DNA of 64,000 nt, taken from Mediterraneibacter glycyrrhizinilyticus (GTDB lineage Bacteria > Bacillota > Clostridia > Lachnospirales > Lachnospiraceae). Below are positions 41,423 through 61,613 of this stretch, one piece after another (the first letter of the stretch is position 1; each line of letters opens with the position of its first letter). The position numbers and the translations under genes are program-made. The notes below the pieces were generated by a model. It saw nothing but the letters and a program-made list of their open reading frames with translations. It did no database searches and was not told the DNA's origin. The stretch is taken from contig NZ_JADMSO010000007.1 in NCBI RefSeq assembly GCF_015560805.1, forward strand, positions 62,001 to 126,000, written 5' to 3'.

Positions 41423-41451
41423 TAGACACAAAAAAATCCGGATGCTATAAT
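41423..41451 (+). promoter_or_regulatory. Promoter of the guanine riboswitch/permease operon
   Basis: TAGACA (41423-41428), 17-base spacer, TATAAT (41446-41451) with an upstream TG (extended -10). Confidence 0.85.
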
Positions 41452-41479
41452 GATGGTAATTTAATAAAGCACTGCTGAC

Positions 41480-41543: not shown

Positions 41544-41566
41544 CCTTGTGTGGTCGCTCTTTTTTT
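41528..41566 (+). terminator. Riboswitch terminator overlapping P3 and P1
   Basis: AGAG (41528-41531) and GACTACA (41534-41540) pair with TGTGGTC (41549-41555) and CTCT (41557-41560), followed by a run of seven T. The left arm is made of the 3' strand of P3, J3/1 and the 3' strand of P1, so ligand-bound aptamer and terminator exclude each other. Confidence 0.85.
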
Positions 41567-43234: not shown

Positions 43235-43265
43235 GAAGAAAGAAAACAGAAAGGTGGTGCGCCTT

Positions 43266-44552
43266 ATGAGCGCAAAAAATACCGTGTTTGGTTTAAAAGG
43301 CAACATTGTTTATAGTAAAACCCCGATGCAGCTGGAAATCTGTGAGAATGGCTATCTTGTCTGTGAAGAGGGGAAAGTAAAAGGTGTGTATCCGGCTCTG
43401 CCGGATACTTACGCCGGGATTCCAGTCAAAGATTACGGAGACCGGCTTTTGATCCCGGGCCTGTCCGATCTGCATGTCCATGCACCGCAGTATGCATTCC
43501 GCGGTCTCGGAATGGATATGGAATTGCTGGAATGGCTAGAGACGAACACATTTCCGGAGGAAGCGAAATATCGGGATCTGGATTATGCGAAGAAAGCATA
43601 TGGGATTTTTGCAGAGAATTTAAGAAAGAGCGCAACGACGAGAGCATGTATCTTCGCAACCGTACATCGGGAGGCGACGTTGTATCTGATGGATCAGCTT
43701 GAGAAAGCGGGACTTCGCACGATGGTGGGTAAGGTCAATATGGACCGGAACTGCCCGGATTATTTAAGCGAGGCATCGGCCAGGAGTTCTGCCGAGGAGA
43801 CAAAGCTATGGCTTGAGGATGTCAAAAGCCGGGCATATCACAATACAATGCCGATCTTGACGCCGCGGTTTATCCCGAGCTGTACCGACGAACTGATGAA
43901 ATTACTGAAAGAGATCCAGACAGAGACCGAGCTTCCGGTACAGTCACATCTGTCGGAGAATTATGGGGAGATATCCTGGGTACAGGAGTTGTGTCCGGAA
44001 TCGGAATTTTACGGAGATGCTTACGATCGGTTTGGATTGTTTGGAAACGATGTGAAGACGGTCATGGCACATTGTGTCCACTCAGATGCGCGTGAGATCG
44101 CAAGGATGAAAGCAAACGGCGTATTTGTCGCCCATTGTCCGGAATCCAATATGAATCTGGCGTCGGGAGTTGCTCCGATCCGTACGTATCTTGATGAGGG
44201 GCTTCATGTAGGACTTGGAAGCGATGTGGCAGGAGGCTCCACGGAAAATCTGTTCCTTGCAATGGCACATGCGATCCAGGCATCGAAACTGCGCTGGCGT
44301 CTGAAAGATGATTCGCTGAAGCCGCTGACATTGCCGGAAACTTTTTACATGGCGACCAAGGGCGGCGGAGCATTCTTCGGTAAGGTCGGAAGTTTTGAGG
44401 AGGGATATGACCTTGATCTGATCGTATTGGATGATGCGAGACTGAAACATCCGCAGCAACTGTCGATCGAACAGAGACTGGAACGGATGGTTTATCTCGC
44501 AGATGAACGCGAGATCCATGCCAAATATGTAGCGGGAGAGCAGTTGTTCTGA
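43266..44552 (+). CDS. guaD: Guanine deaminase
   Basis: A 428-residue amidohydrolase. DLHVHAPQYAFRG (H70, H72) is the guanine-deaminase form of the metal motif; VQSHLSEN and MAHCVHS supply further metal ligands, and GLGSDVAGGST carries the catalytic aspartate. It converts guanine to xanthine and ammonia. AAGGTGG precedes ATG 43266, and the upstream extension to 43227 is rejected. Its product, xanthine, is the substrate or product of the selenium-dependent dehydrogenase encoded at 59 kb. Confidence 0.94.
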   Translation: MSAKNTVFGLKGNIVYSKTPMQLEICENGYLVCEEGKVKGVYPALPDTYAGIPVKDYGDRLLIPGLSDLHVHAPQYAFRGLGMDMELLEWLETNTFPEEAKYRDLDYAKKAYGIFAENLRKSATTRACIFATVHREATLYLMDQLEKAGLRTMVGKVNMDRNCPDYLSEASARSSAEETKLWLEDVKSRAYHNTMPILTPRFIPSCTDELMKLLKEIQTETELPVQSHLSENYGEISWVQELCPESEFYGDAYDRFGLFGNDVKTVMAHCVHSDAREIARMKANGVFVAHCPESNMNLASGVAPIRTYLDEGLHVGLGSDVAGGSTENLFLAMAHAIQASKLRWRLKDDSLKPLTLPETFYMATKGGGAFFGKVGSFEEGYDLDLIVLDDARLKHPQQLSIEQRLERMVYLADEREIHAKYVAGEQLF

Positions 44553-44653: not shown

Positions 44654-45994
44654 CTATTGTTTCTCTGTTTTTTCTTCTTTTTCTTTCGGAAGAATGATGT
44701 TCAGAAGAACAGCGACAAGTGTCGCGATGACGACCGGAGATTTTCCGAAGATCGTCATTACCCAGTCCGGGAAAGTTGCCAGTGCTGCACTTGCCTGAGA
44801 GATACCCATACCAAGCGCTGCGGCAAGTCCGACGATGGAGGTGTTTCGGTAATTCATCTTTTCGGAAGTGATCAATTTCATTCCGTTCATGGCAATGGAA
44901 GCAAATACGGAAACCGTAGCGCCTCCGAGCACACAGTATGGAATTGTCGTTAGGACAGAAGAAAATTTCGGGATCAGTCCGGCAATGAGCAGGATTGCCG
45001 CAGCCATTCCGAGAACGCAGCGGTTTACAACTTTTGTAGTTGTTACGATACCGACGTTCTGACTGAATGTTGCCGTTGGAAGCCCGCCGAAAAGTGCACA
45101 GATGATATTTCCGATTCCGTATCCGACGATACCGCCGTTCAATTCTTTATCTGTCGGAAGACGATCCAGCCCTCCGCTTGTTGTCGCACTGAAATCACCG
45201 ATCGCCTGTATGGAGTTGATCGCGAACAAAAGACCGATCGCCACGCAGGAAGAAACTTCAAAATTGATTCCAAAGTGCATAAGTGACGGAAGCTGGAATA
45301 CCGATGCTTCCGCGATTGGGGAGAAATCAACCATGCCAAAGCACAGAGCAACGACATAACCGCAGATCATACCGATCAGGATCGACGCCAGTTTCCAGAT
45401 TCCCTTTCCAAAGTGGTTCAATAAAGTTACGATCGCCAGTGTGATAAATGCGACGAACCAGTTCTGCCAGGAACCGTAATCTTCGCTTGAAGTACCGCCT
45501 GCCATGTAATTGATCGCAGTCGGATATAAGGAAAGACCGATCGTAAATACAACGGTTCCCGTGATCAGAGGCGGGAAAAATCTGCGGATCTGTTTGACAA
45601 ACAGTCCGACGATGATCGCCACGCCACCGCCGACGATCTGGGCTCCTAAGATTGTGCCGACGCCAAAATCGCCTGCGATCGCCTGCATTGTCGGTACATA
45701 GGCAAAACTGATTCCCATGATGACAGGGAGTCCGGAACCGATACTAAAGAACCGGTTCCGGATAAAAGGAAACAATTGTAACAGTGTAGACAGTGCGGAC
45801 ATGACAAGTGCTGCCTGGATCAGGATGATCGAATCCTGTTCGGAGAGTCCGGCTACGCCGGAGACAATGATCGGCGGTGTAACACAGCCTACGATCATTG
45901 CCACGACGTGCTGGAAAGCCAACGGTGTAGCCTGTTTTAAATCAGGCACACCGTTTAATTCAAATAAGGAAGCGCGGGTCGTTGATTTGTTCAT
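44654..45994 (-). CDS. NCS2 xanthine/urate-type permease
   Basis: A 446-residue nucleobase-ascorbate transporter with about 12-14 hydrophobic segments. TPLAFQHVVAMIVGCVTPPIIV near the N-terminus and the transporter signature QNVGIVTTTK (around 318-327) place it in the uracil-xanthine permease group; the SGGLDRLPTDKELNGG loop also fits. Substrate within the group (xanthine, urate or uracil) cannot be fixed by eye; the operon points to xanthine or urate. It is the last gene of the leftward purine operon. Confidence 0.88.
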   Translation of the reverse strand: MNKSTTRASLFELNGVPDLKQATPLAFQHVVAMIVGCVTPPIIVSGVAGLSEQDSIILIQAALVMSALSTLLQLFPFIRNRFFSIGSGLPVIMGISFAYVPTMQAIAGDFGVGTILGAQIVGGGVAIIVGLFVKQIRRFFPPLITGTVVFTIGLSLYPTAINYMAGGTSSEDYGSWQNWFVAFITLAIVTLLNHFGKGIWKLASILIGMICGYVVALCFGMVDFSPIAEASVFQLPSLMHFGINFEVSSCVAIGLLFAINSIQAIGDFSATTSGGLDRLPTDKELNGGIVGYGIGNIICALFGGLPTATFSQNVGIVTTTKVVNRCVLGMAAAILLIAGLIPKFSSVLTTIPYCVLGGATVSVFASIAMNGMKLITSEKMNYRNTSIVGLAAALGMGISQASAALATFPDWVMTIFGKSPVVIATLVAVLLNIILPKEKEEKTEKQ

Positions 45995-46015
45995 GATAGT
46001 GATCCTCCTATCTTA

Positions 46016-46963
46016 CTATTTTAAGCTGATTCGAGTTCCGGTAGTTCCGTTGATTCCGTCCTTTGCTTTTTCGAGCAATGTGATCAAAGCCTGACGACCC
46101 GGTTTGGATTCTGCAAAGTCCACGGCGGCCTGTACTTTCGGGAGCATGGATCCCGGAGCGAAATGTCCCTCTTCCATATACTGCTTTGCTTCGTCTACAG
46201 TGATGTTGTCCAGCCATTTTTCTTCCGGCTTTCCGAAGTTGATCGCTACTTTTTCGACAGCAGTCAGAATGATCAGAAAGTCTGCATCTAATTCTTTTGC
46301 CAGCAGGCAGCTTGCGAAATCTTTATCGATGACTGCGCTGGCTCCTTTTAAGTGGTTGCCCTGACGTACGACCGGGATACCGCCGCCGCCGCAGGCGATG
46401 ACAAGATCACCGGCGTCAACCATATTGCGGATCGTTCCGATCTCTACAATCTCCTGCGGTTTCGGAGAGGCAACAACACGGCGGTATCCGCGTCCTGCAT
46501 CTTCTTTCATGATATAATCATATTTTGCAGCCATTTCATCAGCCTGTTCTTTAGTAAGGAAACGTCCGATCGGTTTGGATGGAGTTTCAAAAGCAGGATC
46601 TTCCGCATCTACGCGCACCTGTGTGATCATGGTTGCCACAGGAATATCAGTGATATTGCGGTTTAACAATTCTTCACGGAGTGCATTCTGCAGATCGTAT
46701 CCGATGTATGCCTGGCTCATTGCCACACAGACGGAGAGCGGCGTGTTTGGCTGCTGTTCGTCTTCGTGCGTCAGAGCGATCATTGCATTGTTGATCATGC
46801 CGACCTGAGGACCGTTTCCATGTGCGACGATCACTTCACATCCCTCTTCGATCAGATCCACGATGGCACGGGCGGTGATCTTTACCGCCTGCATCTGTTC
46901 AGGAAGTGTGTTGCCGAGCGCGTTTCCGCCCAGTGCGATGACAATTCTTTTTTTCTTTGCCAT
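46016..46963 (-). CDS. arcC: Carbamate kinase (ArcC/YqeA)
   Basis: A 315-residue amino-acid-kinase-fold enzyme that makes ATP from carbamoyl phosphate and ADP. The N-terminal RIVIALGGNALG, the VIVAHGNGPQVG segment near 45-56, VIACGGGGIPVV near 207-218 and the C-terminal GTRI segment are clear. There are no arginine deiminase genes nearby; its partner is the YgeW carbamoyltransferase gene in the same operon, so it is the energy-conserving step of the purine pathway. It lies 2 bases from ridA and 21 from the permease gene. Confidence 0.95.
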   Translation of the reverse strand: MAKKKRIVIALGGNALGNTLPEQMQAVKITARAIVDLIEEGCEVIVAHGNGPQVGMINNAMIALTHEDEQQPNTPLSVCVAMSQAYIGYDLQNALREELLNRNITDIPVATMITQVRVDAEDPAFETPSKPIGRFLTKEQADEMAAKYDYIMKEDAGRGYRRVVASPKPQEIVEIGTIRNMVDAGDLVIACGGGGIPVVRQGNHLKGASAVIDKDFASCLLAKELDADFLIILTAVEKVAINFGKPEEKWLDNITVDEAKQYMEEGHFAPGSMLPKVQAAVDFAESKPGRQALITLLEKAKDGINGTTGTRISLK

Positions 46964-46965
46964 AA

Positions 46966-47349
46966 TTATTCCTCCCCAACGTAAGCGATGGTTTCTACCT
47001 CACAGAGAACTCCTTTTGGAAGTGCTTTGACAGCGACACAGGAACGTGCCGGTTTTCCAGTGAAATATTTTGCATAAATCTCGTTGAATGCCGCGAAATC
47101 ACCCATGTCTGCAAGGAAGCAGGTTGTTTTTACGACGTCGGTAAAGGAAGCGTTCTGGCTTTCAAGCAGTGCGGCTACATTTTTCATGACCTGTTCGGTC
47201 TGTTCTTCGATCGTAGTTCCCACAACTTCGCCTGTTTCAGCGGAAAGTGGGATCTGTCCGGAGAAAAATGCGATTCCGTTCACGATAATCCCCTGAGAAT
47301 ATGGTCCGATAGCTGCCGGTGCGTTTTTTGTGTCTACATATTTTAACAT
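46966..47349 (-). CDS. ridA: RidA-family enamine/imine deaminase
   Basis: A 127-residue RidA (YjgF/YER057c) protein. The active-site arginine lies in [14 protein letters not shown] (about 103-116) and the glutamate in [11 protein letters not shown] at the C-terminus, so it is of the active type. RidA hydrolyses 2-aminoacrylate and related reactive enamines to keto acids. This fits an operon with a diaminopropionate ammonia-lyase, whose product passes through 2-aminoacrylate on the way to pyruvate. It is separated from ygeW by about 150 bases with a possible terminator. Confidence 0.92.
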
Positions 47350-47501: not shown

Positions 47502-48698
47502 TTATTCAAAAACTCTCGGTGTTGATTTTTCTTCCAGTTTTTTCAGGACATCCACAGGATCTGCAAATTTTGCGAGGAAGATCATAGCTGCAATGATATA
47601 TGGTTTGAAGCTAGCTTCTTTGTAAAGCGGATCTCTGTAACGGTCGAATACGCTTGCGTCTACTTCGCCCTCTTCACAGCTTACGCCTGTGATGTCAGCC
47701 GGCAGACAGTGCATATAAAGCGCTTTTCCGTCTTTTGTCGTTGCCATAAGTTCTTCGGTACAAGCCCAGTCTTTGTGTTCTGCATTCTGAGCGAGCAGTT
47801 CTTTCTCCAGAGCTGCAATGCCGTCGAAGTCGCCGTTTCCGTACAGTTCCGTACGTTTTTCCATTGCAGCGAACGGAGCCCAGCTCTTCGGATATACGAT
47901 ATCGGCATCTTTGAATGCTTCTGCCATATCGTTTGTCTTTGTGAAAGATCCGCCGGATTTTTCCGCGTTTTCTTTTGCAACTTTTTCAACATCCTCGAAT
48001 ACTTCGTATCCCTCCGGATGAGCCAGAACGACGTCCATGCCGAAACGTGTCATCAGTCCGATGATTCCCTGCGGTACGGAAAGCGGTTTTCCGTAAGACG
48101 GAGAGTAAGCCCATGTCATAGCCAGTTTTTTGCCTTTCAGGTTCTCAACGCCGCCGAATTCGTGGATGATGTGGAGCATGTCAGCCATAGCCTGTGTCGG
48201 ATGGTCGATGTCACACTGCAGGTTTACAAGTGTTGGTTTCTGTTCCAGGATTCCGTCTTTGTTTCCTGCTGTCACAGCGTCAACAACTTCGTGCATGTAT
48301 TTATTACCTTTTCCGATATACATATCGTCGCGGATACCGATCACGTCAGCCATGAAAGAGATCATGTTTGCTGTCTCACGAACAGTTTCGCCGTGTGCAA
48401 CCTGAGATTTTCCCTCATCCAGATCCTGAACTTCCAGACCAAGCAGGTTGCAGGCAGAAGCGAAAGAGAAACGTGTACGTGTGGAGTTGTCACGGAACAG
48501 AGAGATTCCGAGACCGCTCTCAAATACTTTTGTGGAAATGTTGTTTTCTCTCAAGTAGCGGAGCGCGTCAGCTACGGTAAATACGGCTTCGATCTCATCG
48601 TCGGATTTTTCCCATGTAAGGAAGAAGTCTCCGTTGTACATGTCTTTAAAGTTCAAAGCGTTCAGTTTGTCGATATATCCCTGTAATTTTGCATCCAT
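47502..48698 (-). CDS. ygeW: YgeW-type (knotted) carbamoyltransferase
   Basis: A 398-residue member of the aspartate/ornithine carbamoyltransferase fold. The carbamoyl-phosphate motif is [12 protein letters not shown] (STRTR at 72-76), with HPTQAMADM and MHCLPAD further on. Its length and the knotted-loop region [17 protein letters not shown] match the YgeW group rather than OTC or ATC. It probably works in the phosphorolytic direction on a ureido derivative of 2,3-diaminopropionate, giving carbamoyl phosphate for ArcC; this comes from cluster-level studies and is not shown by the sequence alone. Confidence 0.93.
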
Positions 48699-48736: not shown

Positions 48737-50047
48737 TTATTTGCAGTAGCATTTTGGAAGTGCGGCATATACAGCGGCACAAGTTACCAGATCCTGTTTC
48801 CATGTCTTTTCGTTTGGTGCGTGAGCCTGTGCTTCTGCTCCGGGACCGAATCCGATACATGGGATTCCGTTACGTCCCATGATGGACACGCCGTTTGTGG
48901 AGAACGTCCATTTGTCAGTCAGCGGACGAGACTGTCTCATTTCCAGAGTCTCGGCAGCACCGATTCTCTGCTCGCCGTAAAGTCCGGTGTAAGCTTCCTC
49001 GAGCGCTTTTGTTACTTTGTGGTCTTTCGGGATCGCCCATGTCGGGAAGTAGCATTCGATCTCATATACACATCCTGTGTAAGACGGACGGTCATAGTTG
49101 TACATGGAAACGACAACGTCGTCGCCGTATTTCTTTACGTTCGGCAGGTTGCGGATCTCTTCCAGACAGCTTTCCCATGTCTCGCCGAATGTCATACGAC
49201 GGTCAAGAGATACTGCACAGGAGTCTGCAACTGCACAACGGCTAGGAGATGTGTAGAAAATCTGAGATACTGTTACAGTACCGCGACCGAGGAAACGAGC
49301 CTCTTCCCAGTCTTTGTTATATTTCGGATTTAACATTTTTACAAGACCTTTGATTTCTGTCTCGTCTGCGTCATCGTTCTCGTTCAGGGAACGTACATCC
49401 TGAAGAATGTCAGCCATCTTGTAGATTGCGTTGTCTCCACGTTCCGGAGCGGAACCGTGGCAGGAAACCCCTTTCACGTCGATGCGGATTTCCATACGTC
49501 CTCTCTGTCCGCGGTAGATTCCGCCGTCAGTCGGTTCTGTGGATACGACAAATTCCGGACGGACTTTATCTTCGTTGATGATGTACTGCCAGCAGAGACC
49601 GTCACAGTCTTCTTCCTGTACGGTTCCGACTACCATGATCTTGCATCCCTCAGGGATTAGATCCAAGTCTTTCATGATCTTAGCGCCGTATACGGCAGAT
49701 ACGATACCGCCGCACTGGTCGGATACACCACGTCCGCCGATCTCGGTCTCTGTCTCATATCCCTCATATGGATCAAATGTCCAGTTCTCGATATTTCCGA
49801 TACCTACGGTGTCGATATGTGCATCGTATGCGATGATCTTTTCTCCGGTTCCCATGTAACCGATGACATTTCCCTGTGGGTCGATGACTACTTCATCAAA
49901 TCCGACTTTTTTCATCTCGGCAGCGATCGTGTCGATGTGGGCTTTCTCATCACAGCTTTCGCCCGGGTTTTTTACGATCGCACGAAGAAATGCGGTCATG
50001 TCTTTTTCATATCCCTGTGCAGCCTCTTTGATTTTGTTCAGATCCAT
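48737..50047 (-). CDS. ygeY: YgeY-family M20-type metallohydrolase
   Basis: A 436-residue M20 peptidase/deacylase-fold protein. Metal ligands appear in [10 protein letters not shown] (H77, D79), [10 protein letters not shown] and the [10 protein letters not shown] pair of glutamates. YgeY proteins are annotated as selenium-metabolism or amidohydrolase proteins and occur next to YgeW and YgeX; the expected role is hydrolysis of an acyl- or carbamoyl-type intermediate of purine breakdown. Its exact substrate is not established here. Confidence 0.92.
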
Positions 50048-50086: not shown

Positions 50087-51292
50087 TTACATTTCATTTC
50101 CGTCCCAGACGATGGATTTGTAACGATCCGGATCCGTATCTCCCTCGGTGGAGAAGAGCAGAACTTTGGAATTCTCATCCAGTCCGAGATGTTCTCTTAA
50201 TCCCTTGTATTCGTCCATGCACATGATGCAGGCAAGCGTTCCGAACGGTGCGGCTCCGGATTCTCCGGAAGTAACAGCCGGATCTCCTTTGATCGGAGCA
50301 GCCAGCATTCTCATTCCTTTGGCAGCTACCCAGTCAGGAGCGGCAACAAAGGTGTCAACGTGATTCTTTAAGATGTCCCACGAAATGGTATTCGGCTCGC
50401 CGCATGCAAGACCGGCCATGATCGTGACCATATCGCCGTCTACGATCTGGATGCTGCCGTCTCCGAGCGCTGCGCCTTTGTAAAGACAAGCGGCGGCTTC
50501 GGCTTCCACAACGATCACTTTCGGTGGATTGTCCGGATAACGGTTTGCGAAGAATCCCTGAACAGCTCCGGCAAGAGAACCAACGCCTGCCTGGATAAAG
50601 ACATGGGTCGGTCTGTCGCATCCGTACTCGTGAAGCTGATCGTTCGCCTCCATCGCCATCGTTCCGTATCCCTGCATGATCCATGCCGGGATCTCTTCGT
50701 AGCCCTCCCAGGCAGTATCCTGAACCATAACGCCGTTCTCTGTCTTCATCGCCATGTCGTTTGCCATGCGGACACATTCGTCGTAGTTGACTTCCTCGAT
50801 CGTAGCCACTGCGTTTTCAGCAAGAATATTGTTCAGTCTCGTCTGCGTCGATCCTTTCGGCATCAGTACAACGGATTTCTGTCCCAGCTTGTTGGCTGCC
50901 CACGCAACGCCGCGTCCGTGGTTTCCGTCCGTAGCGGTAAAGAAAGTTGCCTGACCGAATTCTTCTCTGAGCCGATCGGATGTCAGGACATTGTACGGAA
51001 GCTCAGAAACATCTTTTCCTGTCTGCTGTGCGATGTAGCGTGCCATTGCAAAAGATCCGCCGAGCACCTTAAAGGCATTCAAACCGAAGCGGTAAGATTC
51101 ATCTTTGATATAAACCTCGCCAAGCCCGAGAAAATCAGCCATCTTGTCGAGCTTCGTAAGCGGCGTCACGCTGTACTGCGGGAAGCTCTCGTGAAATGCG
51201 CGGGCTTTTGCAATTTCATCAAGCGCCATAACTTTCAGATTCGCATCTTCTGTTTTCGGCATGTGATTGACTGCCCATTTGATTGTTTCCAT
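50087..51292 (-). CDS. ygeX: 2,3-diaminopropionate ammonia-lyase
   Basis: A 401-residue fold-type II PLP enzyme that degrades 2,3-diaminopropionate to pyruvate and two ammonia. The Schiff-base lysine is K75 in RFGLNAFKVLGG, close to its position in characterised homologues; ATDGNHGRGVAWAA (the phosphate and cofactor region) and the glycine-rich GVGSLAGAVQGFF follow. The ATG at 51292 has AAGGAGG eight bases before it; an open extension to 51388 overlaps the regulator gene and is rejected. Confidence 0.95.
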   Translation of the reverse strand: METIKWAVNHMPKTEDANLKVMALDEIAKARAFHESFPQYSVTPLTKLDKMADFLGLGEVYIKDESYRFGLNAFKVLGGSFAMARYIAQQTGKDVSELPYNVLTSDRLREEFGQATFFTATDGNHGRGVAWAANKLGQKSVVLMPKGSTQTRLNNILAENAVATIEEVNYDECVRMANDMAMKTENGVMVQDTAWEGYEEIPAWIMQGYGTMAMEANDQLHEYGCDRPTHVFIQAGVGSLAGAVQGFFANRYPDNPPKVIVVEAEAAACLYKGAALGDGSIQIVDGDMVTIMAGLACGEPNTISWDILKNHVDTFVAAPDWVAAKGMRMLAAPIKGDPAVTSGESGAAPFGTLACIMCMDEYKGLREHLGLDENSKVLLFSTEGDTDPDRYKSIVWDGNEM

Positions 51293-51323
51293 GTTGAAAA
51301 ACCTCCTTGTGAATGAAATGTGT

Positions 51324-51992
51324 CTACCGGTTCCCTGCGTCCATGTAGTTATAAAGCGTAAATTTTGAAATTCCCAAAAGTGAAGCAACTTTATCTCCGG
51401 ATTTGGTGATCAGGAATGCACCGGCGTTGTTTAAAAACTTGACGACAGCGATCTTATCGTCTTTATTCATGGCGGCAACCGGTTTGCCGACCAGAGAAAG
51501 CGCCTGAGCGATCAGAGAGTCCAACAGGTCATTGACATTGTGGATGATCTGCTGTGGTTGTGCATCATCAACGGAATCAGAATCGCTGTCGGAAAGACGG
51601 GATTCTTTCTCGGTTGTGATAAGATCGTGTACAGCACTTTCCACTGCAAGCAGTGCTGTGATGTCATAATTTAATGAAAAGATATACTCCACAGTGCCGT
51701 TGTCCCCTCTGACGAACATCGTGCTTGATTTTAAAATACGTCCGTCATCGGTTTTCGTAAGATAGGCGAGACGATCCTTGATCTTGGATGGATCTTTGCT
51801 CAGCGTATCAAATACGACTCGGGATGGTCCGTCTCCGAGCTCACGCCCTGTCACATGTCCGTGCTCGATATGTACAACGGAATGCTCCAATTGTTCTGCT
51901 TTCAGATCGTGGATGACGATTTCGCAGGAATCGCCGAATTGAACTGCAAGACCGTGTGCCAGTTGGATTAGTAGATCTAGTCGTTTTCCCAT
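51324..51992 (-). CDS. YheO-type PAS/HTH transcriptional regulator
   Basis: A 222-residue protein with an N-terminal YheO-like PAS sensor (about 5-120, GDSCEIVIHDL and LEHSVVHIEHGHVTGRELG) and a C-terminal DauR/HTH_22-type DNA-binding helix-turn-helix (about 178-218, FLITKSGDKVASLLGISKFT). These regulators sense small molecules and control adjacent catabolic genes. It is the first gene of the leftward purine operon, faces ssnA across a shared promoter region, and is the obvious candidate to bind the palindrome at 52074-52090 and 41356-41372. The ligand could be a purine or a breakdown product; this is inference. Confidence 0.88.
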   Translation of the reverse strand: MGKRLDLLIQLAHGLAVQFGDSCEIVIHDLKAEQLEHSVVHIEHGHVTGRELGDGPSRVVFDTLSKDPSKIKDRLAYLTKTDDGRILKSSTMFVRGDNGTVEYIFSLNYDITALLAVESAVHDLITTEKESRLSDSDSDSVDDAQPQQIIHNVNDLLDSLIAQALSLVGKPVAAMNKDDKIAVVKFLNNAGAFLITKSGDKVASLLGISKFTLYNYMDAGNR

Positions 51993-52037: not shown

Positions 52038-52066
52038 ATCATAGCACCAAAAAAAAAGAAATTCAA
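52038..52066 (-). promoter_or_regulatory. Promoter of the leftward purine operon
   Basis: On the minus strand TTGAAT (52061-52066), 17-base spacer, TATGAT (52038-52043) with an upstream TG. Confidence 0.86.
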
Positions 52067-52073
52067 TAGGTTT

Positions 52074-52090
52074 TCTAAAAATTTTTTAGA
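52074..52090. promoter_or_regulatory. 17-bp palindromic operator candidate, copy 2
   Basis: TCTAAAAATTTTTTAGA, identical to 41356-41372. Its centre (52082) is 39 bp from the leftward -10 box and 60 bp from the rightward one. It lies upstream of both -35 boxes, which suits an activator site. Confidence 0.82.
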
Positions 52091-52118
52091 TAATCTGATT
52101 TTTTTTTAGAATTAGTGA

Positions 52119-52147
52119 TTGCATTTCATATTCTTTAATGTTATGCT
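52119..52147 (+). promoter_or_regulatory. Promoter of the ssnA operon
   Basis: TTGCAT (52119-52124), 17-base spacer, TATGCT (52142-52147) with an upstream TG. Confidence 0.75.
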
Positions 52148-52153
52148 AGAGAT

Positions 52154-52341: not shown

Positions 52342-53673
52342 ATGCTGATTTTAGGAAATGGCAGATTAGTCACACGCGACGAGAAGAATCCGTATCTGGA
52401 GAATGGCGCGGTAGCGATCGATGGGAATACGATCGTAAAAGTAGGCAGTTGTGAGGAAGTAAAGGCTGCATATCCGGACGCGGAATTTATTGATGCGAAA
52501 GGAAACGTGATCATGCCTGCATTTATCAATGCGCACGAGCACATTTATAGTTCTTTCGCGAGAGGAATGGCGATCAACGGATATGATCCGAAAGGATTCC
52601 TAGACATTCTGGATGGAATGTGGTGGACGATCGACCGGAATCTGACACTGCATGATACCTATTTAAGTGCGATGGCAACTTATATCGATTGTATCCGGAA
52701 CGGAGTTACGACGATTTTCGACCATCATGCAAGTTTCGGTTCGATCACAGGATCTTTGTTTGAGATCGAGAAGGCGGCGAAAGAGACGGGAGTACGTTCC
52801 TGTCTGTGTTACGAAATCTCTGACAGAGACGGCAAGGATAAGGCGAGGGCGTCTGTGATGGAGAACGCAGAGTTTATTCGTTATGCACTGAAAGACGACA
52901 GTGGTATGATCGCGGGAATGATGGGAATGCACGCACAGTTTACCATCTCAAACGAAACGATGGAGTTGGCGGCAGCCAACAAACCGGATGGAGTCGGCTA
53001 TCATATCCATGTTGCAGAGGGAATCGAAGATCTGCATCACTGTCTGAAACATTACGGAAAGCGGATCGTGGACCGGCTGATGGACTGCGGGATCCTTGGA
53101 GAGAAGACATTGCTCGGACATTGCATCTATATCAATGAGCATGAGATGGATCTGATCAAAGAGACGAATACGATGGTCGTACATAATCCGGAATCCAATA
53201 TGGGAAATGCATGCGGATGTCCTCCGACCATGCATATCGTACACAAGGGAATCTTAACCGGTCTCGGAACCGACGGATATACCCATGATATGACCGAATC
53301 TTACAAGGTGGCAAATGTGCTCCACAAACACCATCTCTGCGATGCAAACGCAGCGTGGGGAGAGGTTCCGCAGATGTTGTTTGAGGGGAACGCAAAGATT
53401 GCAAACCGCTATTTCAAACAGGAACTGGGCGTATTGAAAGAGGGCGCGGCAGGCGATGTGATCATCGTGGATTACAATCCATTGACACCGCTTCATGCAG
53501 GAAATATCAACAGTCATATTGTATTTGGTATGACAGGAAGAGACGTTGTGACAACTGTCGCAAACGGAAAAGTGCTGATGAAAGACCGCGAGCTTCTCCA
53601 TATCGATGCAGATAAGGTGATGGCAGACTGTCGTCAGGCTGCAAAAGAACTCGCAGACAGAATCAATGCATGA
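52342..53673 (+). CDS. ssnA: SsnA-type amidohydrolase
   Basis: A 443-residue amidohydrolase of the SsnA group, related to guanine deaminase and chlorohydrolases. The metal motif is NAHEHIY (H65 and H67), with further ligands in MHAQFT, HIHVAEG and LGHCIYI, and the catalytic aspartate in GLGTDGYTHDM. In gut anaerobes ssnA accompanies ygfK, ygeW/X/Y and selenium-dependent hydroxylases; the expected role is opening or deamination of a purine-derived ring, but the substrate is not defined by sequence. AAAGGAG precedes the ATG. Confidence 0.93.
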   Translation: MLILGNGRLVTRDEKNPYLENGAVAIDGNTIVKVGSCEEVKAAYPDAEFIDAKGNVIMPAFINAHEHIYSSFARGMAINGYDPKGFLDILDGMWWTIDRNLTLHDTYLSAMATYIDCIRNGVTTIFDHHASFGSITGSLFEIEKAAKETGVRSCLCYEISDRDGKDKARASVMENAEFIRYALKDDSGMIAGMMGMHAQFTISNETMELAAANKPDGVGYHIHVAEGIEDLHHCLKHYGKRIVDRLMDCGILGEKTLLGHCIYINEHEMDLIKETNTMVVHNPESNMGNACGCPPTMHIVHKGILTGLGTDGYTHDMTESYKVANVLHKHHLCDANAAWGEVPQMLFEGNAKIANRYFKQELGVLKEGAAGDVIIVDYNPLTPLHAGNINSHIVFGMTGRDVVTTVANGKVLMKDRELLHIDADKVMADCRQAAKELADRINA

Positions 53674-53702
53674 TCGACGGATTCGTAAAGGAGGAAAAAT
53701 CT

Positions 53703-56690
53703 ATGAGTGATATGATGACACCGATTTCATTTGATAAATTAGTAAACTGGATTCTGGAAGAGCATAAAAAATATGGCACAGTGTTCGGTGAGAAACATGC
53801 GTATACGGCAGATGAAAAATATAACCGTACGATCTTCGGACGCCCGCTTGAGACTCCGATCGGACCGGCGGCAGGACCGAATACCCAGCTGACACAGAAT
53901 ATCGTAGCGGCTTACTATACCGGAAGCAGATTCTTTGAACTGAAGACGGTACAGAAGATGGACGGAGCGGAACTTGCCGCCTGTATCAACAAACCGTGTA
54001 TCAAAGCGGATGATGAGTGTTATAACTGCGAGTGGTCTACGGAATTGTATGTACCGCAGGCAATGGAAGAATACATTAAGGCGTGGTTCCTCTTGAAAGT
54101 ATTTTCCAAGGAGTTCGGACTCGGTGCGGCAGACGGCTTCCAGTTCAATATCAGCGTCGGATATGATCTGGCAGGCATTCAGTCCGAGAAGATCGATACA
54201 TTCTTAAATACAATGAAGAATGCGGCGGACAGCGAAGTGTTCAGATCATGCAGACAGTATCTGTTGGACAATGTGGATAAATTTGAGAAAGTGACAAAAG
54301 AAGATATCGAGGCGATCGAACCGGAGATCTGTAATTCCGTGACGATCTCCACGCTTCACGGATGTCCTCCGCAGGAGATCGAAAAGATCGCGATGTATCT
54401 GATCACAGTGAAAGGGTTCCATACATTTATCAAATGTAATCCGACGCTGCTGGGATATGAATTTGCAAGAAAGAGAATGGACGAGATGGGCTACGATTAT
54501 GTAGCGTTCGGCGATTTCCATTTTCTGGATGACCTGCAGTATGAGGATGCGGTTCCGATGCTGACAAGACTGATGAAAGTCTGCGAGGAGCGGAATCTGG
54601 AATTCGGCGTGAAGATCACAAATACATTCCCGGTGGATGTGATGCAGAACGAACTTCCAAGCGAAGAAATGTATATGTCCGGAAAATCGCTGTATCCGCT
54701 TTCTATCGCGCTTGCAGCGAAACTGGCAGAAGAATTCGACGGAAAACTCCATATTTCTTATTCCGGCGGTGCGGATGCACATAATATAGAGGGAATCGTG
54801 AATGCCGGGATCTGGCCGGTAACGTTTGCAACCACATTGCTGAAGCCGGGCGGATATCTGCGTACGATCCAGATGGCGGAAAAACTGGAAAAAGAGGGCG
54901 TCGTATTTGAGGGAATCGATGTGGAAGCGGCGAAGAAACTTGCGGAAGACGCGGTGACAGATCCGCACCATGTCAAAGCAGTGAAACCACTTCCGTCCCG
55001 CAAGATGGAACAGGAAGTTCCGCTGATCGACTGTTATGTGGCGCCGTGTAAAGAGGGATGCCCGATCCATCAGGATATCACGACATATTTGAAACTGGTG
55101 AGCGACGGCAAGTATGAGGAAGCGATGGAAGTGATCGTGGAGAAGAACCCGCTTCCGTTCATCACCGGTACGATCTGCGCACATAATTGTATGAATAAAT
55201 GTACACGGAATTTCTATGAAGAACCGGTTCATATCCGCAATATGAAATTAGTGGCAGCAGAAAATGGTTACGAGGCATGGCTTTCTAAAGTGAGCGCACC
55301 GGCAGTGACAAGAGGAAAAGCAGCGGTTGTCGGCGGAGGTCCGGCAGGTATGGCAGCAGCGTATTTCTTAAGAAAAGGCGGCATGGACGTTACGATCTTT
55401 GAGAAACAGAAAGCATTGGGCGGCGTTGTGCGCAATATCATTCCGGGATTCCGTATCGCAGACGAAGCCATTGATCGGGATGCAAAGATCCTCGAGACAA
55501 TGGGTGTCAAAATGGTATTCAACACGGAAGTGGCTGATGTGAACGAGCTGAAAGCACAGGGATTTGAGAATGTGGTTCTTGCAGTCGGAGCTTTTGAACC
55601 CGGAACATTGAAATTGGAAGCGGGAGAGACGATGAACGCACTGGAATTCCTGGCACAGTTCAAGGCGCTGGACGGAAATGTCGATATCGGAAAGAACGTC
55701 GTTGTGATCGGCGGAGGAAATACCGCGATGGATACGGCGAGAGCGGCAAAACGTACAAACGGAGTGGAGAAAGTTTCCCTTGTTTACCGCCGTACGAAGA
55801 GATACATGCCGGCAGATGCAGAAGAACTGGAGATGGCAGTTGAGGACGGCGTGGAATTCTGTGAGCTGCTCGCTCCGGTCAGATTGGAAGCAGGAAAACT
55901 TGTTTGTAAAGTGATGAAGCTTGGAGATCTGGATGCATCCGGAAGAAGAGGTGTTGTTGAGACCGGTGAATTTGCGGAAGTGGATGCGGATACCGTGATC
56001 GTGGCGGTAGGAGAAAAAGTCCCGACGGCATTCTACAAAGCAAACGGACTGCATGTATCCGAGCGCGGAAAGGCACTTGTCAATGAAAAAACACTGGAAT
56101 CCAACGTGGCAGGGGTCTATGTTGTCGGTGACGGACTGGGAGGTCCGGCTACGGTTGTCGAGGGAATCCGCGACGGTAAGATGGCGGCGGAAGCGATCAT
56201 CGGGGAATGTCTTGCAAAAGATTTTGATCAGACTGCGGACGAAGAGACGATCTACAACAGAAGAGGAATCCTCCGTCAGGAAGCAGACGGAAAAGACGAG
56301 AGTACAAGATGTCTCGGATGCTCCACGATCTGCGAGAATTGTACGGAGGTATGTCCGAACCGTGCGAACGTAGCGATCCGCGTTCCGGGCATGGAGAAAC
56401 ACCAGATCATCCATGTCGATTATATGTGTAACGAGTGCGGCAACTGTAAGAGCTTCTGCCCATATACAAGCGCGCCGTATCTGGACAAATTTACATTGTT
56501 TGCAAATGAAGCAGATTTCGCAGACAGTAAAAACCAGGGATTTACAGTTCTTGACCGGGATGTGCTTACATGTAAAGTACGGTACCTCGGAGAGGAATTC
56601 ATCTGGAAGAAAGGGGAGGAAACCCGGCTTGCAGAGGGACTGCAGAAACTGATCGACGCGGTGGTAAGCGATTATGCTTATTTGGTGTAA
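53703..56690 (+). CDS. ygfK: YgfK, flavin/Fe-S oxidoreductase (putative selenate reductase subunit family)
   Basis: A 995-residue multi-domain oxidoreductase. The first 430 residues resemble a dihydropyrimidine/dihydroorotate dehydrogenase barrel; then comes a cysteine region like glutamate synthase small subunit (CKEGCPIHQDI and CAHNCMNKC, near 455-505), two nucleotide-binding folds (VVGGGPAGMAAAYFLRKGG near 540 and VVVIGGGNTAMDTARAAK near 665), and a C-terminal ferredoxin-like part (CLGCSTICENCTEVCPN and CNECGNCKSFCPY). It can thus pass electrons between NAD(P)H, flavins and Fe-S clusters. It is the likely redox partner of the FAD-less dehydrogenase encoded at 59 kb. ATG 53703 follows AAAGGAGG. 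Confidence 0.93.
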   Translation: MSDMMTPISFDKLVNWILEEHKKYGTVFGEKHAYTADEKYNRTIFGRPLETPIGPAAGPNTQLTQNIVAAYYTGSRFFELKTVQKMDGAELAACINKPCIKADDECYNCEWSTELYVPQAMEEYIKAWFLLKVFSKEFGLGAADGFQFNISVGYDLAGIQSEKIDTFLNTMKNAADSEVFRSCRQYLLDNVDKFEKVTKEDIEAIEPEICNSVTISTLHGCPPQEIEKIAMYLITVKGFHTFIKCNPTLLGYEFARKRMDEMGYDYVAFGDFHFLDDLQYEDAVPMLTRLMKVCEERNLEFGVKITNTFPVDVMQNELPSEEMYMSGKSLYPLSIALAAKLAEEFDGKLHISYSGGADAHNIEGIVNAGIWPVTFATTLLKPGGYLRTIQMAEKLEKEGVVFEGIDVEAAKKLAEDAVTDPHHVKAVKPLPSRKMEQEVPLIDCYVAPCKEGCPIHQDITTYLKLVSDGKYEEAMEVIVEKNPLPFITGTICAHNCMNKCTRNFYEEPVHIRNMKLVAAENGYEAWLSKVSAPAVTRGKAAVVGGGPAGMAAAYFLRKGGMDVTIFEKQKALGGVVRNIIPGFRIADEAIDRDAKILETMGVKMVFNTEVADVNELKAQGFENVVLAVGAFEPGTLKLEAGETMNALEFLAQFKALDGNVDIGKNVVVIGGGNTAMDTARAAKRTNGVEKVSLVYRRTKRYMPADAEELEMAVEDGVEFCELLAPVRLEAGKLVCKVMKLGDLDASGRRGVVETGEFAEVDADTVIVAVGEKVPTAFYKANGLHVSERGKALVNEKTLESNVAGVYVVGDGLGGPATVVEGIRDGKMAAEAIIGECLAKDFDQTADEETIYNRRGILRQEADGKDESTRCLGCSTICENCTEVCPNRANVAIRVPGMEKHQIIHVDYMCNECGNCKSFCPYTSAPYLDKFTLFANEADFADSKNQGFTVLDRDVLTCKVRYLGEEFIWKKGEETRLAEGLQKLIDAVVSDYAYLV

Positions 56691-57606: not shown

Positions 57607-58962
57607 ATGAAAATATTGATCAAAGGCGCCGGGGATCTGGCGACAGGAATTGCAGTACGTCTGCATCACTGTGGATATCCGATCTTGATGACGGAGATTG
57701 AAGAGCCGCTGACTGTGAGGAGAATGGTCGCATTTTCCAGGGCGGTCTATGAGGGCGAAGCAGTCGTGGAGGGAATCACCGGCGTGCGGGTACAGACGCC
57801 GGAAGAAATCCGAAAAACACAGCAGGCAGGAAAGATACCGGTATTGGTAGATCCGCATGCTGCGATCCGTACCGCGTATCAGCCGGATGTTTTGATCGAT
57901 GCGATCCTCGCTAAGAAAAATCTGGGAACAGAAGTGACGGACGCGCCGTTTGTGATCGGCGTCGGACCGGGATTTACGGCAGGAGAAGACTGTCACTGTG
58001 TCATAGAAACAAAACGCGGACATACATTGGGAAGCGTGATCTTTCGAGGTTCGGCAATTCCGAATACAGGGGTTCCGGGAGATGTGGGCGGTTATACGAT
58101 CGAGCGGCTGCTGAAATCGACGTCGGCAGGTGTGATGGAACCGGTCGCGTCGATCGGTGATCTTGTTGAGACGGGGGAGATTGTTGCTTATACCGGAGGC
58201 GAACCCGTGTATGCGAAAATGACAGGGATTGTCCGCGGCATGCTTCAACAGGGAGTGAACGTAGAAAAGGATCTGAAGATCGGAGACATCGATGCAAGAT
58301 GTGAAACGAGTCATTGTTTTACGATTTCAGACAAAGCGCGTGCGATCGGCGGGGGTGTGCTGGAAGCGGTCGTGCAGTTTGAACGGATCTATCGGAAGTA
58401 TGCAGTGATCGTGCTTGCGGCGGGAAATGCGTCCCGATTCGGGAGTAATAAACTTCTGGCGGATGTACAGGGGAAACCATTATATCGCCATATGCTTGAT
58501 AAACTGGCAGGACTTGGTGCATTTCCAAGGATCTTAGTGACCGGGTATGAGGAAATCGCAGAAGCGGCGGAAGCGATCGGTGTCTGCACCGTGGCGAATC
58601 ATCAGCCGGAACTGGGGATCTCTCATTCCTTGAAATTAGGATTGGAGAAATGCAAGTCGATAGAACCGGAAGTAAAAGGTGTTTTGTTCTGTGTCTGCGA
58701 TCAGCCGGGCTTAAGTCTGTCCACGATGATGGAGCTGATCCGGCTTGCGGTCAACAGACCGGGGATGATCCTTGCATCCGCTCATGGAAACAGGACCGGG
58801 AATCCGGTGCTCTGGGATCGGGAGTATTTTTCAGAGTTGGAGAAGTTAAGCGGTGATGTCGGCGGACGTGCAGTGATTGAAAAACATTGGGAAAAATGTC
58901 TGTGTGTGGAGACAAGAGAAGAAGAGTTGAGAGATATTGACCGGAGGTTGGATCTTTTTTGA
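57607..58962 (+). CDS. yqeB: YqeB-MocA fusion: selenium-dependent Mo hydroxylase maturation protein with cytidylyltransferase domain
   Basis: A 451-residue fusion. Residues 1-260 match the YqeB/EF2563 family (ILIKGAGDLATGIAVRL, VIGVGPGFTAGEDCH, IPNTGVPGDVGGYT), which is required with YqeC for selenium-dependent molybdenum hydroxylases. Residues 265-450 are a MocA/MobA-like nucleotidyltransferase (VLAAGNASRFGSNKLL from 269, VCDQPGLS near 363, GNPVLWDREYF near 400 and GDVGGR), which would attach CMP to molybdopterin. These are usually separate genes. The DNA is continuous with no frameshift. Xanthine-dehydrogenase-family enzymes use the CMP form of the cofactor, so both halves serve the next gene's product. 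Confidence 0.92.
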   Translation: MKILIKGAGDLATGIAVRLHHCGYPILMTEIEEPLTVRRMVAFSRAVYEGEAVVEGITGVRVQTPEEIRKTQQAGKIPVLVDPHAAIRTAYQPDVLIDAILAKKNLGTEVTDAPFVIGVGPGFTAGEDCHCVIETKRGHTLGSVIFRGSAIPNTGVPGDVGGYTIERLLKSTSAGVMEPVASIGDLVETGEIVAYTGGEPVYAKMTGIVRGMLQQGVNVEKDLKIGDIDARCETSHCFTISDKARAIGGGVLEAVVQFERIYRKYAVIVLAAGNASRFGSNKLLADVQGKPLYRHMLDKLAGLGAFPRILVTGYEEIAEAAEAIGVCTVANHQPELGISHSLKLGLEKCKSIEPEVKGVLFCVCDQPGLSLSTMMELIRLAVNRPGMILASAHGNRTGNPVLWDREYFSELEKLSGDVGGRAVIEKHWEKCLCVETREEELRDIDRRLDLF

Positions 58963-59042
58963 TCTGCATAAAAATAAAACAGGAAATAAAGAAACCGGAA
59001 AAAGGAATTCCGCAGGGAAATCCGAAAGAAGGGAAGGGGAAT

Positions 59043-61613
59043 ATGTATACGGTTCAGGTAAACGGAAAAATGTATGAAGCAGAAACAGACAAAAAGCTGA
59101 TGCGCTTTTTGAGGGATGACCTGCACCTGACTTCCGTCAAAGACGGATGCAGTCAGGGCGCCTGCGGAACTTGTACAGTTTTGGTGGACGGAAAGACAAC
59201 AAGGGCCTGCATCCCGATGATCTCCAAAATGGAGGGAAAATCGATCGTGACGGTGGAGGGACTTTCGGAACGGGAAAAAGAAGTATATGCATATGCATTT
59301 GGCGCAGTCGGAGCTGTTCAGTGTGGTTTTTGTATTCCGGGTATGGTCATGTGTGCGAAAGGACTTCTGGATGTGAATCCGGATCCGACCCGATTGGAAG
59401 TTGTAGCGGCGATCCGCAATAATATCTGCCGTTGTACCGGGTACAAAAAGATTATCGAGGGAATCTTGCTGAGCGGAAAAATCTTCCGTGAAAATCTTAC
59501 GGTATCGGAAAACAGCGGTATTACAAAAGTTGGCGATAAAATCCAGCGCGTGGATGCGGCAGAAAAAGTATTGGGTACCGGAGAATATCCGGACGATATT
59601 TATCTGGACGGCATGATCTACGGAAGCGCGGTACGCGCAGAATATCCGCGTGCAAAAGTGCTGGCGATCCATGCCGAAGAAGCGAAAGCGCTGGACGGTG
59701 TGATCGGCGTATTTACCGCGGATGATGTTCCGGGAGACGTGAAAGTCGGACATTTGAAACATGATTGGGATACGATGATCCCGGTCGGAAACGTGACCCA
59801 TTATGTCGGAGACGCGATCTGTCTGATCGCAGCCGAGACGCCGGAGGTCCTGGAGCAGGCTAAGAGCCTTGTCAAAGTGGATTACGAGGTGTATGAGCCG
59901 GTGCTGGATCCGTTTGAGGCGATGAAAGAAGATGCACCGCTTGTGCATCAGTCCGGCAATATCCTGGCACATGAGCATCTCGTACGCGGAAATGCGGATG
60001 AAGTGATCGCAAACTCCAAATATAAAGTGACGCAGCATTATGAAACGCCGTGGACGGAACATGCATTTTTGGAGCCGGAGTGCGCGGTGGCTATGCCGTT
60101 TGACGAGGATGGGGTATTCATCTATTCGACGGATCAGGGCATTTATGATACCCAGAAAGAATGCTGTATCATGCTGGGACTTCCGCCGGAGAAAGTGATC
60201 GTGGAAAATAAATTAGTCGGCGGCGGATTCGGTGGAAAGGAAGACGTCAGCGTACAGCATCACGCGGCGCTGATCGCATATCTGACGAAACGGATCGTAA
60301 AAGTGAAATTATCCAGACAGGAGAGTATCACGATCCACCCGAAGCGACATCCGATGTGGATGGACATTACGACGGCATGTGACGAGAACGGCTATCTGAC
60401 AGCGATGAAAGCGGTTGTTGTGGCAGACACCGGAGCGTATGCGTCACTGGGCGGACCGGTTCTTCAGCGTGCCTGTACCCATGCGGCAGGGCCGTACAAT
60501 TTTCAGGTCATCGATATTGACGGAACCGCGGTATACACGAACAATCCGCCGGCCGGCGCATTCCGGGGATTTGGTGTGACACAGACTTGCTTTGGTTCGG
60601 AGATGAATTTGAACCTGCTTGCAGAGAAAGTCGGCATCACTCCGTGGGAGATCCGATACCGCAATGCGATCCGTCCGGGGCAGGTGCTTCCGAATGGTCA
60701 GATTGCGGACCCGTCTACGGGAGTGGCGGAGACATTGGAAGCTGTCAAGGAAGTGTTTGATACCGAACCGTATGTCGGAATTGCATGTGCGATGAAAAAT
60801 GCCGGCGTAGGAGTCGGGCTTCCGGACTGGGGACGTTGCCGTCTTGTTATCAAAGACGGAAAGGCAGAGATCCACGCCGGAGCATCCTGTATCGGTCAGG
60901 GGTTGGGAACAGTATTGACACAGGTTGTTTCCCAGACTGCTGAATTGGATTATGAACAGATCGTGTATTGCAGACCAAATACATCGAATTCTCCGGATTC
61001 CGGTACGACATCCGGATCCAGACAGACGTTACTGACCGGAGAGGCGGCAAAACGTGCAGCGTTAAAGCTGAAAGAGGCGTTGAGCGGAAAAACACTGGAA
61101 GAACTGAACGGAACCGAGTATTACGGAGAATATCTCGGAAAAACCGATAAGATGGGAAGCGACGTGCCGAATCCGGTATCTCATGTCGCTTACGGATATG
61201 CGACTCAGGTCTGTGTGCTCAATGAAGACGGTACGATCAAGAAGATGATCGGCGCACATGATGTCGGAAAAGCAGTGAATCCGATCAGTGTGGAAGGGCA
61301 GATCGAGGGCGGCATCGTCATGAGTATGGGCTATGCGCTGACCGAGCAGTATGAGATTAAAGAGGGAAGACCGGTATCACGGTATGGCACACTGGGACTT
61401 TTCAAAGCGGATAAAGTGCCGGAGATCGAGTCGATCATTGTAGAGAAATCGGGCGTGGAGCCGGGATACGGAGCGATCGGAATCGGGGAGATCACGTCCA
61501 TTCCGACAGCACCGGCAATCGTGGGCGCATATTATAAACTACAGGGAGAACTTCAGACGAAACTTCCGATCCACAATACGCCGTATGAAAAAAAGAAAAA
61601 AGCTGCAAAATAG
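59043..61613 (+). CDS. xdh: Selenium-dependent xanthine dehydrogenase, 2Fe-2S/Mo fusion without FAD domain
   Basis: An 856-residue fusion. Two [2Fe-2S] sites come first (C36, C41, C44, C56, and C94, C97, C129, C131), then the molybdopterin domain with TEHAFLEPECAVA, VGGGFGGKEDVSVQHH, NPPAGAFRGFG, GASCIGQG and the base glutamate in GAIGIGEIT. The FAD domain of ordinary xanthine dehydrogenase is absent and no separate FAD subunit is in the window. Selenium here is a labile cofactor ligand, not selenocysteine; no in-frame TGA occurs. It interconverts hypoxanthine, xanthine and probably urate. ATG 59043 follows GGGAAGGGGA; the open extension from 58959 is rejected. Confidence 0.93.
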   Translation: MYTVQVNGKMYEAETDKKLMRFLRDDLHLTSVKDGCSQGACGTCTVLVDGKTTRACIPMISKMEGKSIVTVEGLSEREKEVYAYAFGAVGAVQCGFCIPGMVMCAKGLLDVNPDPTRLEVVAAIRNNICRCTGYKKIIEGILLSGKIFRENLTVSENSGITKVGDKIQRVDAAEKVLGTGEYPDDIYLDGMIYGSAVRAEYPRAKVLAIHAEEAKALDGVIGVFTADDVPGDVKVGHLKHDWDTMIPVGNVTHYVGDAICLIAAETPEVLEQAKSLVKVDYEVYEPVLDPFEAMKEDAPLVHQSGNILAHEHLVRGNADEVIANSKYKVTQHYETPWTEHAFLEPECAVAMPFDEDGVFIYSTDQGIYDTQKECCIMLGLPPEKVIVENKLVGGGFGGKEDVSVQHHAALIAYLTKRIVKVKLSRQESITIHPKRHPMWMDITTACDENGYLTAMKAVVVADTGAYASLGGPVLQRACTHAAGPYNFQVIDIDGTAVYTNNPPAGAFRGFGVTQTCFGSEMNLNLLAEKVGITPWEIRYRNAIRPGQVLPNGQIADPSTGVAETLEAVKEVFDTEPYVGIACAMKNAGVGVGLPDWGRCRLVIKDGKAEIHAGASCIGQGLGTVLTQVVSQTAELDYEQIVYCRPNTSNSPDSGTTSGSRQTLLTGEAAKRAALKLKEALSGKTLEELNGTEYYGEYLGKTDKMGSDVPNPVSHVAYGYATQVCVLNEDGTIKKMIGAHDVGKAVNPISVEGQIEGGIVMSMGYALTEQYEIKEGRPVSRYGTLGLFKADKVPEIESIIVEKSGVEPGYGAIGIGEITSIPTAPAIVGAYYKLQGELQTKLPIHNTPYEKKKKAAK

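Follow-up and report, generated by a model that had tools for sequence, protein, structure and literature searches.

Which regulator controls the two divergent gene runs for anaerobic purine degradation in Mediterraneibacter glycyrrhizinilyticus, and does it act through the palindrome that lies between them? We address this question in a stretch of 64,000 nucleotides (contig NZ_JADMSO010000007.1, positions 62,001 to 126,000 of the forward strand; hereafter the window), which holds an anaerobic purine-degradation region and, about 10 kilobases (kb) to its left, a riboswitch operon. The leftward run comprises a regulator gene, dpaL, ygeY, ygeW, a RidA-like gene, a carbamate-kinase-like gene and a xanthine permease gene; the rightward run comprises ssnA, ygfK, two accessory genes and a selenium-dependent xanthine dehydrogenase. 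We propose that the adjacent YheO-type PAS_6/HTH_22 regulator uses the palindrome as its operator, with two regulator dimers sitting at the divergent promoters and activating them. From the sequence evidence below, we regard this reading as a whole as probable; binding of the palindrome by the regulator appears very likely, and activation is the somewhat favored outcome of that binding.

A paired palindrome between two predicted divergent promoters

A preliminary description of the window had noted an identical 17-base-pair (bp) palindrome at the two purine loci, and its coordinates and exactness are borne out: TCTAAAAATTTTTTAGA, a perfect 8-1-8 palindrome, occurs at 52074-52090 and at 41356-41372, 10,718 bp apart. 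When up to two mismatches are allowed, these remain the only two places in the window (each matched on both strands), against a mean of 0.03 in 100 dinucleotide shuffles. A second, degenerate palindrome at 52094-52110 had been overlooked; its centre lies exactly 20 bp from that of the first. The elements of this intergenic region are as follows, all promoters here and below being predicted from consensus matches only.

52074..52090, no strand: candidate operator half P1, the perfect palindrome TCTAAAAATTTTTTAGA, conserved upstream of the regulator in relatives
52094..52110, no strand: candidate operator half P2, the degenerate palindrome TCTGATTTTTTTTTAGA, with the 20-bp spacing found in relatives
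52061..52066, minus strand: -35 box of the leftward (regulator-dpaL) promoter, TTGAAT, consensus match only
52038..52043, minus strand: -10 box of the leftward promoter, TATGAT, in an alignment block (CATCATA) conserved in relatives
52119..52124, plus strand: -35 box of the ssnA promoter, TTGCAT, consensus match only
52142..52147, plus strand: -10 box of the ssnA promoter, TATGCT, consensus match
51324..51992, minus strand: YheO-type PAS_6/HTH_22 regulator, the proposed operator binder (Pfam; AlphaFold2 model)

The pair has a 17-3-17 geometry, 37 bp in total, and is placed symmetrically with respect to the divergent -35 boxes: about 16-17 bp separate each half's centre from the nearest box. 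At the leftward promoter (TTGAAT-17-TATGAT), the P1 centre is 39 bp from the first -10 base; at the ssnA promoter (TTGCAT-17-TATGCT), the first -10 base is 60 bp from the P1 centre and 40 bp from the P2 centre. On remeasurement, we thus recover the 39, 60 and (for the riboswitch operon) 82 bp given earlier, together with the location of the palindrome upstream of the -35 box at all three promoters. Given the second palindrome and the 20-bp centre spacing, the distances of 39 and 60 bp can be explained by a single symmetric operator with a nearer and a farther half, and the two halves would together be filled by two regulator dimers.

Conservation upstream of the regulator gene

We surveyed 79 named loci around the regulator, taken from the best 80 matches of our scan (some are near-duplicates and some share one genome). 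Within 400 bp upstream of the regulator, the exact sequence YCTAAAAANTTTTTAGR is found in 45 of the 79 loci and a reversed control in none; the number rises to 46 when one mismatch is tolerated and to 51 when two are, against 0 and 1 for the control. The 46 strong-site loci collapse into 18 groups at 75% identity. Over the whole of the 79 loci, 49 exact matches lie upstream of the regulator and two elsewhere, both at repeated copies of the same regulator promoter. Clostridium sp. Marseille-P2415 carries three directly repeated copies of the regulator and its promoter (L074, positions 9911, 13016 and 17955), with pieces of dpaL, ssnA and ygfK in between, which may be a real amplification or an assembly artefact.

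The 20-bp spacing recurs as well: it accounts for 69 of the 76 distances between a strong site and a neighbor within 45 bp (pairs of two strong sites being counted from both sides), the other seven being 1 bp (four cases), 19, 21 and 35 bp. A clear pair, TCTAAAAATTTTTTAGG-TTA-CCTAAAAGTTTTTTAGG, is seen in locus L008. For an alignment, 106 upstream regions, with some species present twice, were reduced to 84 (score of at least 22 and enough flank) and then to 53 by removing similar ones. Blocks corresponding to the -35 and -10 boxes are conserved on both sides, clearly on the regulator side and more weakly on the ssnA side. Near the ends of the palindromes, a conserved C and a conserved G stand out from the A/T-rich surroundings, with 1.56 and 2.54 bits for the first half and 1.98 and 0.97 bits for the second.

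These data bear on whether the palindrome is a protein operator at all. An A-tract acting like an UP element, or a transcription terminator, could account for its A5/T5 core, and the copy before the guanine operon directly follows the stop codon of an NAD synthase gene upstream and folds weakly as RNA (-3.5 kcal/mol, z-score -2.25). Neither feature would explain the conserved C and G near the ends or the 20-bp spacing, and with divergent promoters on both sides of the pair, no transcript from upstream would be expected to terminate there. We therefore hold such an explanation to be very improbable.

A different palindrome, CAAAC-AAAAA-GTTTG, is seen by eye before a TTGACA box at two more distant YheO-type genes (31-33% identity; L034 and L035). 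Perhaps the YheO family uses A-tract-centred palindromes with differing ends.

Distribution of the site and of the regulator

The regulator carries a PAS_6 domain (PF08348, 116.2 bits for a cut-off of 27) and a C-terminal HTH_22 domain (PF13309, 76.4 bits for a cut-off of 29.6). Its AlphaFold2 model, of predicted local distance difference test score (pLDDT) 77.6 and predicted template modeling score (pTM) 0.52, shows an N-terminal alpha/beta part and a C-terminal helical part with helices at 199-206 and 210-219. A search of solved structures with the regulator returned no credible relative (best E value 0.011).

In a survey of 397 sampled genomes of the family, 61 contain an orthologue of the regulator, defined by an E value of up to 1e-40. 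The consensus YCTAAAAAWTTTTTAGR is found exactly at 28 sites in 19 genomes: 24 sites in 15 genomes with an orthologue and four sites in four genomes without. Genomes with an exact site thus number 15 of 61 with the regulator versus 4 of 336 without (Fisher p 3e-10, a value inflated by genome kinship), and for the reversed pattern the corresponding numbers are 1 of 61 and 9 of 336. A smaller sample from the genus (n=12) behaves alike, with an exact site in three of seven orthologue-bearing genomes and in none of the other five.

The host genome (3.0 Mb; G000) has three exact copies, namely the two of the window and one upstream of carB; the looser pattern TCTAA-N7-TTAGA occurs at four places, the fourth of which precedes a molybdenum-cofactor operon. 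Chance repetition of a simple, A/T-rich word might be suspected here, all the more as words with one mismatch are as common as the reversed control. However, three exact copies in the host compare with four sites in all 336 regulator-free genomes (Poisson p about 3e-7), and this adds to the conservation described above; chance, already very unlikely, can practically be set aside.

By neighborhood, 15 of the 28 exact sites fall in the regulator/dpaL/ssnA cluster, and one each lies at the guanine operon (host), a xanthine permease gene (G148), carB (host) and a NuoE/NuoF-like operon (G371); four are unclear and five unlinked. Once one mismatch is allowed, the pattern shows no excess over the reversed control (32 places against 35 in 14 selected genomes); because of this, we use weak sites only where a relative repeats them.

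The sites that we judged unlinked are in G082, G087, G132, G316 and G366; those of G316 and G366 fall within open frames. A distant YheO-type homologue exists in G082 (E value 7.5e-17), and none at 1e-40. The four unclear sites, two each in G046 and G371, have similar neighborhoods and are intergenic or at gene ends. By eye, the site clusters in G371 and G046 adjoin tRNA-like sequences (L223, position 324; L126, position 1501), and a tiny open reading frame of 28 codons follows the cluster in G046.

Could the palindrome belong to some other transcription factor, found together with the purine cluster, that has the YheO-type protein as just one of its targets? Binding by the YheO-type protein is our inference, and the exact site exists in four genomes without an orthologue at an E value of 1e-40. 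All four of these sites are among the five unlinked ones, however, and none adjoins recognized purine genes within the stretch examined. Nowhere is the site as regular as ahead of the regulator gene. In three genomes (G138, G153 and G363) no regulator gene adjoins the site, which separates dpaL from the ssnA side; each has an orthologue (54-55% identical) elsewhere on the same contig, about 216, 5 and 18 kb away, respectively. We consider control by another factor rather improbable and retain the YheO-type protein as the candidate binder.

Further candidate targets

Single sites would serve the guanine-riboswitch operon, an operon for molybdenum cofactor and molybdate uptake, and carB. The first of these is in the window:

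41356..41372, no strand: second exact copy of the palindrome, ahead of the guanine-riboswitch operon, unconserved in G150 and G046
41423..41451, plus strand: promoter of the guanine operon, TAGACA-17-TATAAT, consensus match only
41462..41558, plus strand: purine riboswitch aptamer RF00167 (54.3 bits, gathering threshold 37)
41813..43234, plus strand: NCS2-type purine permease (Pfam Xan_ur_permease; a longer open reading frame from 41723 was scanned)
43227..44552, plus strand: guanine-deaminase-like amidohydrolase (best NCBIfam TIGR02967, 363.5 bits, below the cut-off of 375.4)

From the centre of this palindrome to the first -10 base is 82 bp. The molybdenum operon of the host has a one-mismatch site upstream (G000:C21:23013), 68 bp from a -10 box whose -35 match is poor. 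Its products carry the Pfam domains XdhC/CoxI, MobA-like transferase, molybdopterin-binding and radical SAM with Mob_synth_C, followed by MOSC with molybdopterin-binding and a binding-protein-dependent transporter; we take the radical-SAM protein to be MoaA and the transporter to be ModABC. The nearest relative examined, G150, retains the site as TCTAAAAAATAATTAGA with changed flanks. The MobA-like protein ends in a LysR-type HTH_1 domain (L195, 4169-5149), a feature shared with ModE-type molybdate regulators; it may be a second regulator of the operon.

The third exact copy of the host lies 72 bp from the -10 box of carB, and in G150, the genome with which we compared carB of the host, the site is kept at an identical distance and the next gene behind differs. 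Both the molybdenum operon and carB would make metabolic sense as targets: xanthine dehydrogenase depends on molybdenum cofactor, and carbamoyl groups are substrates that YgeW and carbamate kinase deal with.

Beyond the host, an exact site precedes the xanthine permease gene of G148, and operator-like sites occur upstream of NuoE/NuoF-like operons (L221, 2262-2278; L207, 867; L208, 9689; L206, 1574 and 1604). In G371 the latter are exact and paired; those of G046, G149 and G150 have one mismatch, and the operon of G150 starts with a gene for a membrane protein. The operons of G046 and G150 continue with a group A6-type [FeFe] hydrogenase (just under the cut-off in G150), and the purine regulon may thus reach electron supply. 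In the host genome, we also observe a one-mismatch palindrome, CCTAAAAAATATTTAGA, about 220 bp before a membrane-pyrophosphatase-like gene named by eye (L198, position 1777).

Activation or repression

The PAS domain of the regulator would sense a purine or a breakdown product, and the ligand-sensing protein would then recruit RNA polymerase to both divergent promoters. Site position makes us favor activation: at all five predicted host promoters the site is upstream of the -35 box and leaves the promoter boxes free, and the distance to the -10 box is 68-82 bp for the three single sites. The same operator and regulator might instead serve repression, with dimers blocking the alpha subunits of the polymerase at the A/T-rich upstream region until an inducer releases them. 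In favor of repression, the -10 boxes of the leftward and guanine promoters are near consensus, and DauR is a repressor. Within the YheO family, Cj1387c is also described as a repressor of its neighbor (PMC4519771). Moreover, the guanine promoters of G150 and G046 each have a palindrome, with three mismatches, that overlaps the -35 end and the spacer. On the other side, distances of 68, 72 and 82 bp from the -10 box are an unusual place for a simple repressor, and the absence of overlap with predicted -35 or -10 boxes in the host also speaks against it. Repression is in our view unlikely, though the most serious competitor of activation.

Besides Cj1387c and the overlapping palindromes just mentioned, several observations count against an activating YheO-type operator. 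An exact site is absent from 46 of the 61 regulator-bearing genomes, 41 of the 106 upstream regions score at most 23 of 32, inside the range reached by shuffles, and many upstream regions have a TACAAA variant in the outer half. In the host, TCTAA-N7-TTAGA is rarer than the reversed pattern (4 versus 13 places), and the lack of enrichment of one-mismatch sites points the same way. Covariation between site and protein is uninformative, the recognition helix being near-invariant (SK[FY]TLY in most loci). Nor do all candidate targets keep their site in relatives. The orthologous guanine-operon promoters of G150 (permease 90% identical) and G046 (79%) have no palindrome upstream, and at the other 27 of 30 permease loci (at most 48% identity) no match with up to three mismatches is found in 800 bp. 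A search of 22 genomes for the molybdenum operon gave 15 upstream regions that we inspected by eye; of these, only the regions of G000 and G150 have the site. As the stretch of G150 down to the carB promoter is similar too, conservation of that site alone is weak evidence.

The preliminary description had further taken the steps of 21 and 22 bp between promoters as whole turns of the helix, a claim weakened by the distances at the molybdenum operon (68 bp) and carB (72 bp), which miss the 21-bp series. The eight distances that we computed spread over 0.48-0.86 of a 10.5-bp turn, so that helical phasing is weak. As for the earlier idea that one YheO-type regulator serves several purine units, it gains from the conservation at 45 of 79 loci, from a distribution that follows the regulator and from the orthologues in G138, G153 and G363, and loses from the unconserved guanine copy.

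On balance, an activating operator of the YheO-type regulator is our preferred reading. A wider proposal, which we hold only tentatively, is that the reductive degradation of purines and uric acid in gut Lachnospiraceae has a PAS protein of the YheO family as its master activator, two dimers on the 37-bp site driving both halves of the pathway; this protein would also tune molybdate uptake and molybdopterin supply, the salvage of guanine, the synthesis of carbamoyl phosphate and, in certain genera, an [FeFe] hydrogenase linked to NADH, and would replace the predicted sigma-54 activator of Clostridium.

Relation to known systems

PucR of Bacillus subtilis is an activator of purine catabolic genes that acts on an aerobic pathway through a different box. 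The proposed regulator would resemble it as an activator of purine catabolism and belongs to an unrelated protein family.

Closer in architecture is Cj1387c, a YheO-like PAS6/HTH regulator of Campylobacter jejuni that is described as repressing the adjacent L-PSP (RidA-type) gene and affecting flagella (PMC4519771). It shares the two-domain architecture of the window regulator and likewise acts on a neighboring gene; the terms 'binding site' and 'palindrom' are absent from the text of that paper, and the portions examined contain no link to purines. Among the matches listed in the open-licence literature, no operator is described for the YheO-type family.

Control of the same pathway genes has been predicted for DioR, whose sigma-54 regulon in Clostridium, Clostridioides and Desulfotomaculum covers dpaL, ygeW-ygfK-ssnA-ygeY, yqeB and pbuX according to the parts of the study seen (PMC6615313); a C. 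difficile paper, also seen in part, cites DioR with the proposed targets pbuX and pyrC (PMC11448449). DioR is a sigma-54 enhancer-binding protein, whereas the promoters of the window match -35/-10 boxes. The sigma-54 pattern TGGCAY-N5-TTGCW, with up to two mismatches, has 41 matches in the window and none at 51993-52341 or 41351-41812. Control of the pathway thus appears to have been replaced here relative to the sigma-54/DioR control predicted in Clostridium. A reductive uric-acid cluster with the same enzymes, including ygfK, ssnA and ygeX/dpaL, is described in E. coli and gut anaerobes (PMC12507026). E. coli differs in having a CRP-site region between ygeV and ygeW, and the terms 'yheo' and 'pas' do not occur in the portions of that source seen.

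As far as the open-licence matches listed show, the pathway and its predicted DioR control in Clostridium were known, and a palindromic operator in the YheO-type family would be new. If correct, this would be the first operator assigned in that literature to a YheO-type protein, in a family with few described targets, and different clostridia would place the same pathway under unrelated regulators. Uric-acid breakdown by gut anaerobes is relevant to gout and to planned uricolytic probiotics, and according to a 2025 study (PMC12507026) it is still poorly understood how gut bacteria regulate it. A named candidate regulator with a defined candidate operator would make this question testable by a single gel shift.

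Other genes of the purine region and the ssnA leader

The remaining purine genes of the window are listed below.

44654..47349, minus strand: RidA-like, carbamate-kinase-like and xanthine permease genes (the first two by eye; pbuX 409.8 bits, cut-off 414.15)
47502..48698, minus strand: ygeW knotted carbamoyltransferase (TIGR03316)
48737..50047, minus strand: ygeY hydrolase (TIGR03526)
50087..51388, minus strand: diaminopropionate ammonia-lyase, dpaL/ygeX, open reading frame as listed (TIGR03528)
52342..53673, plus strand: ssnA aminohydrolase (NF005540/TIGR03314)
53670..56690, plus strand: ygfK reductase (TIGR03315)
58959..61613, plus strand: selenium-dependent xanthine dehydrogenase (TIGR03311)

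In the ssnA leader, a strongly conserved element at 52212-52261 consists of ATACAAAATATAGYGCGACGTGCAAG, a variable loop and CTTGTAGAATTTGTAT. It has five distinct sequences among the loci examined and is present in 4 of the 397 family genomes, always in the ssnA leader. A search of Rfam with the element gave no match above chance level, and folding support is mixed (z-scores of -0.68 and -2.15). The element is possibly a structured RNA controlling ssnA.
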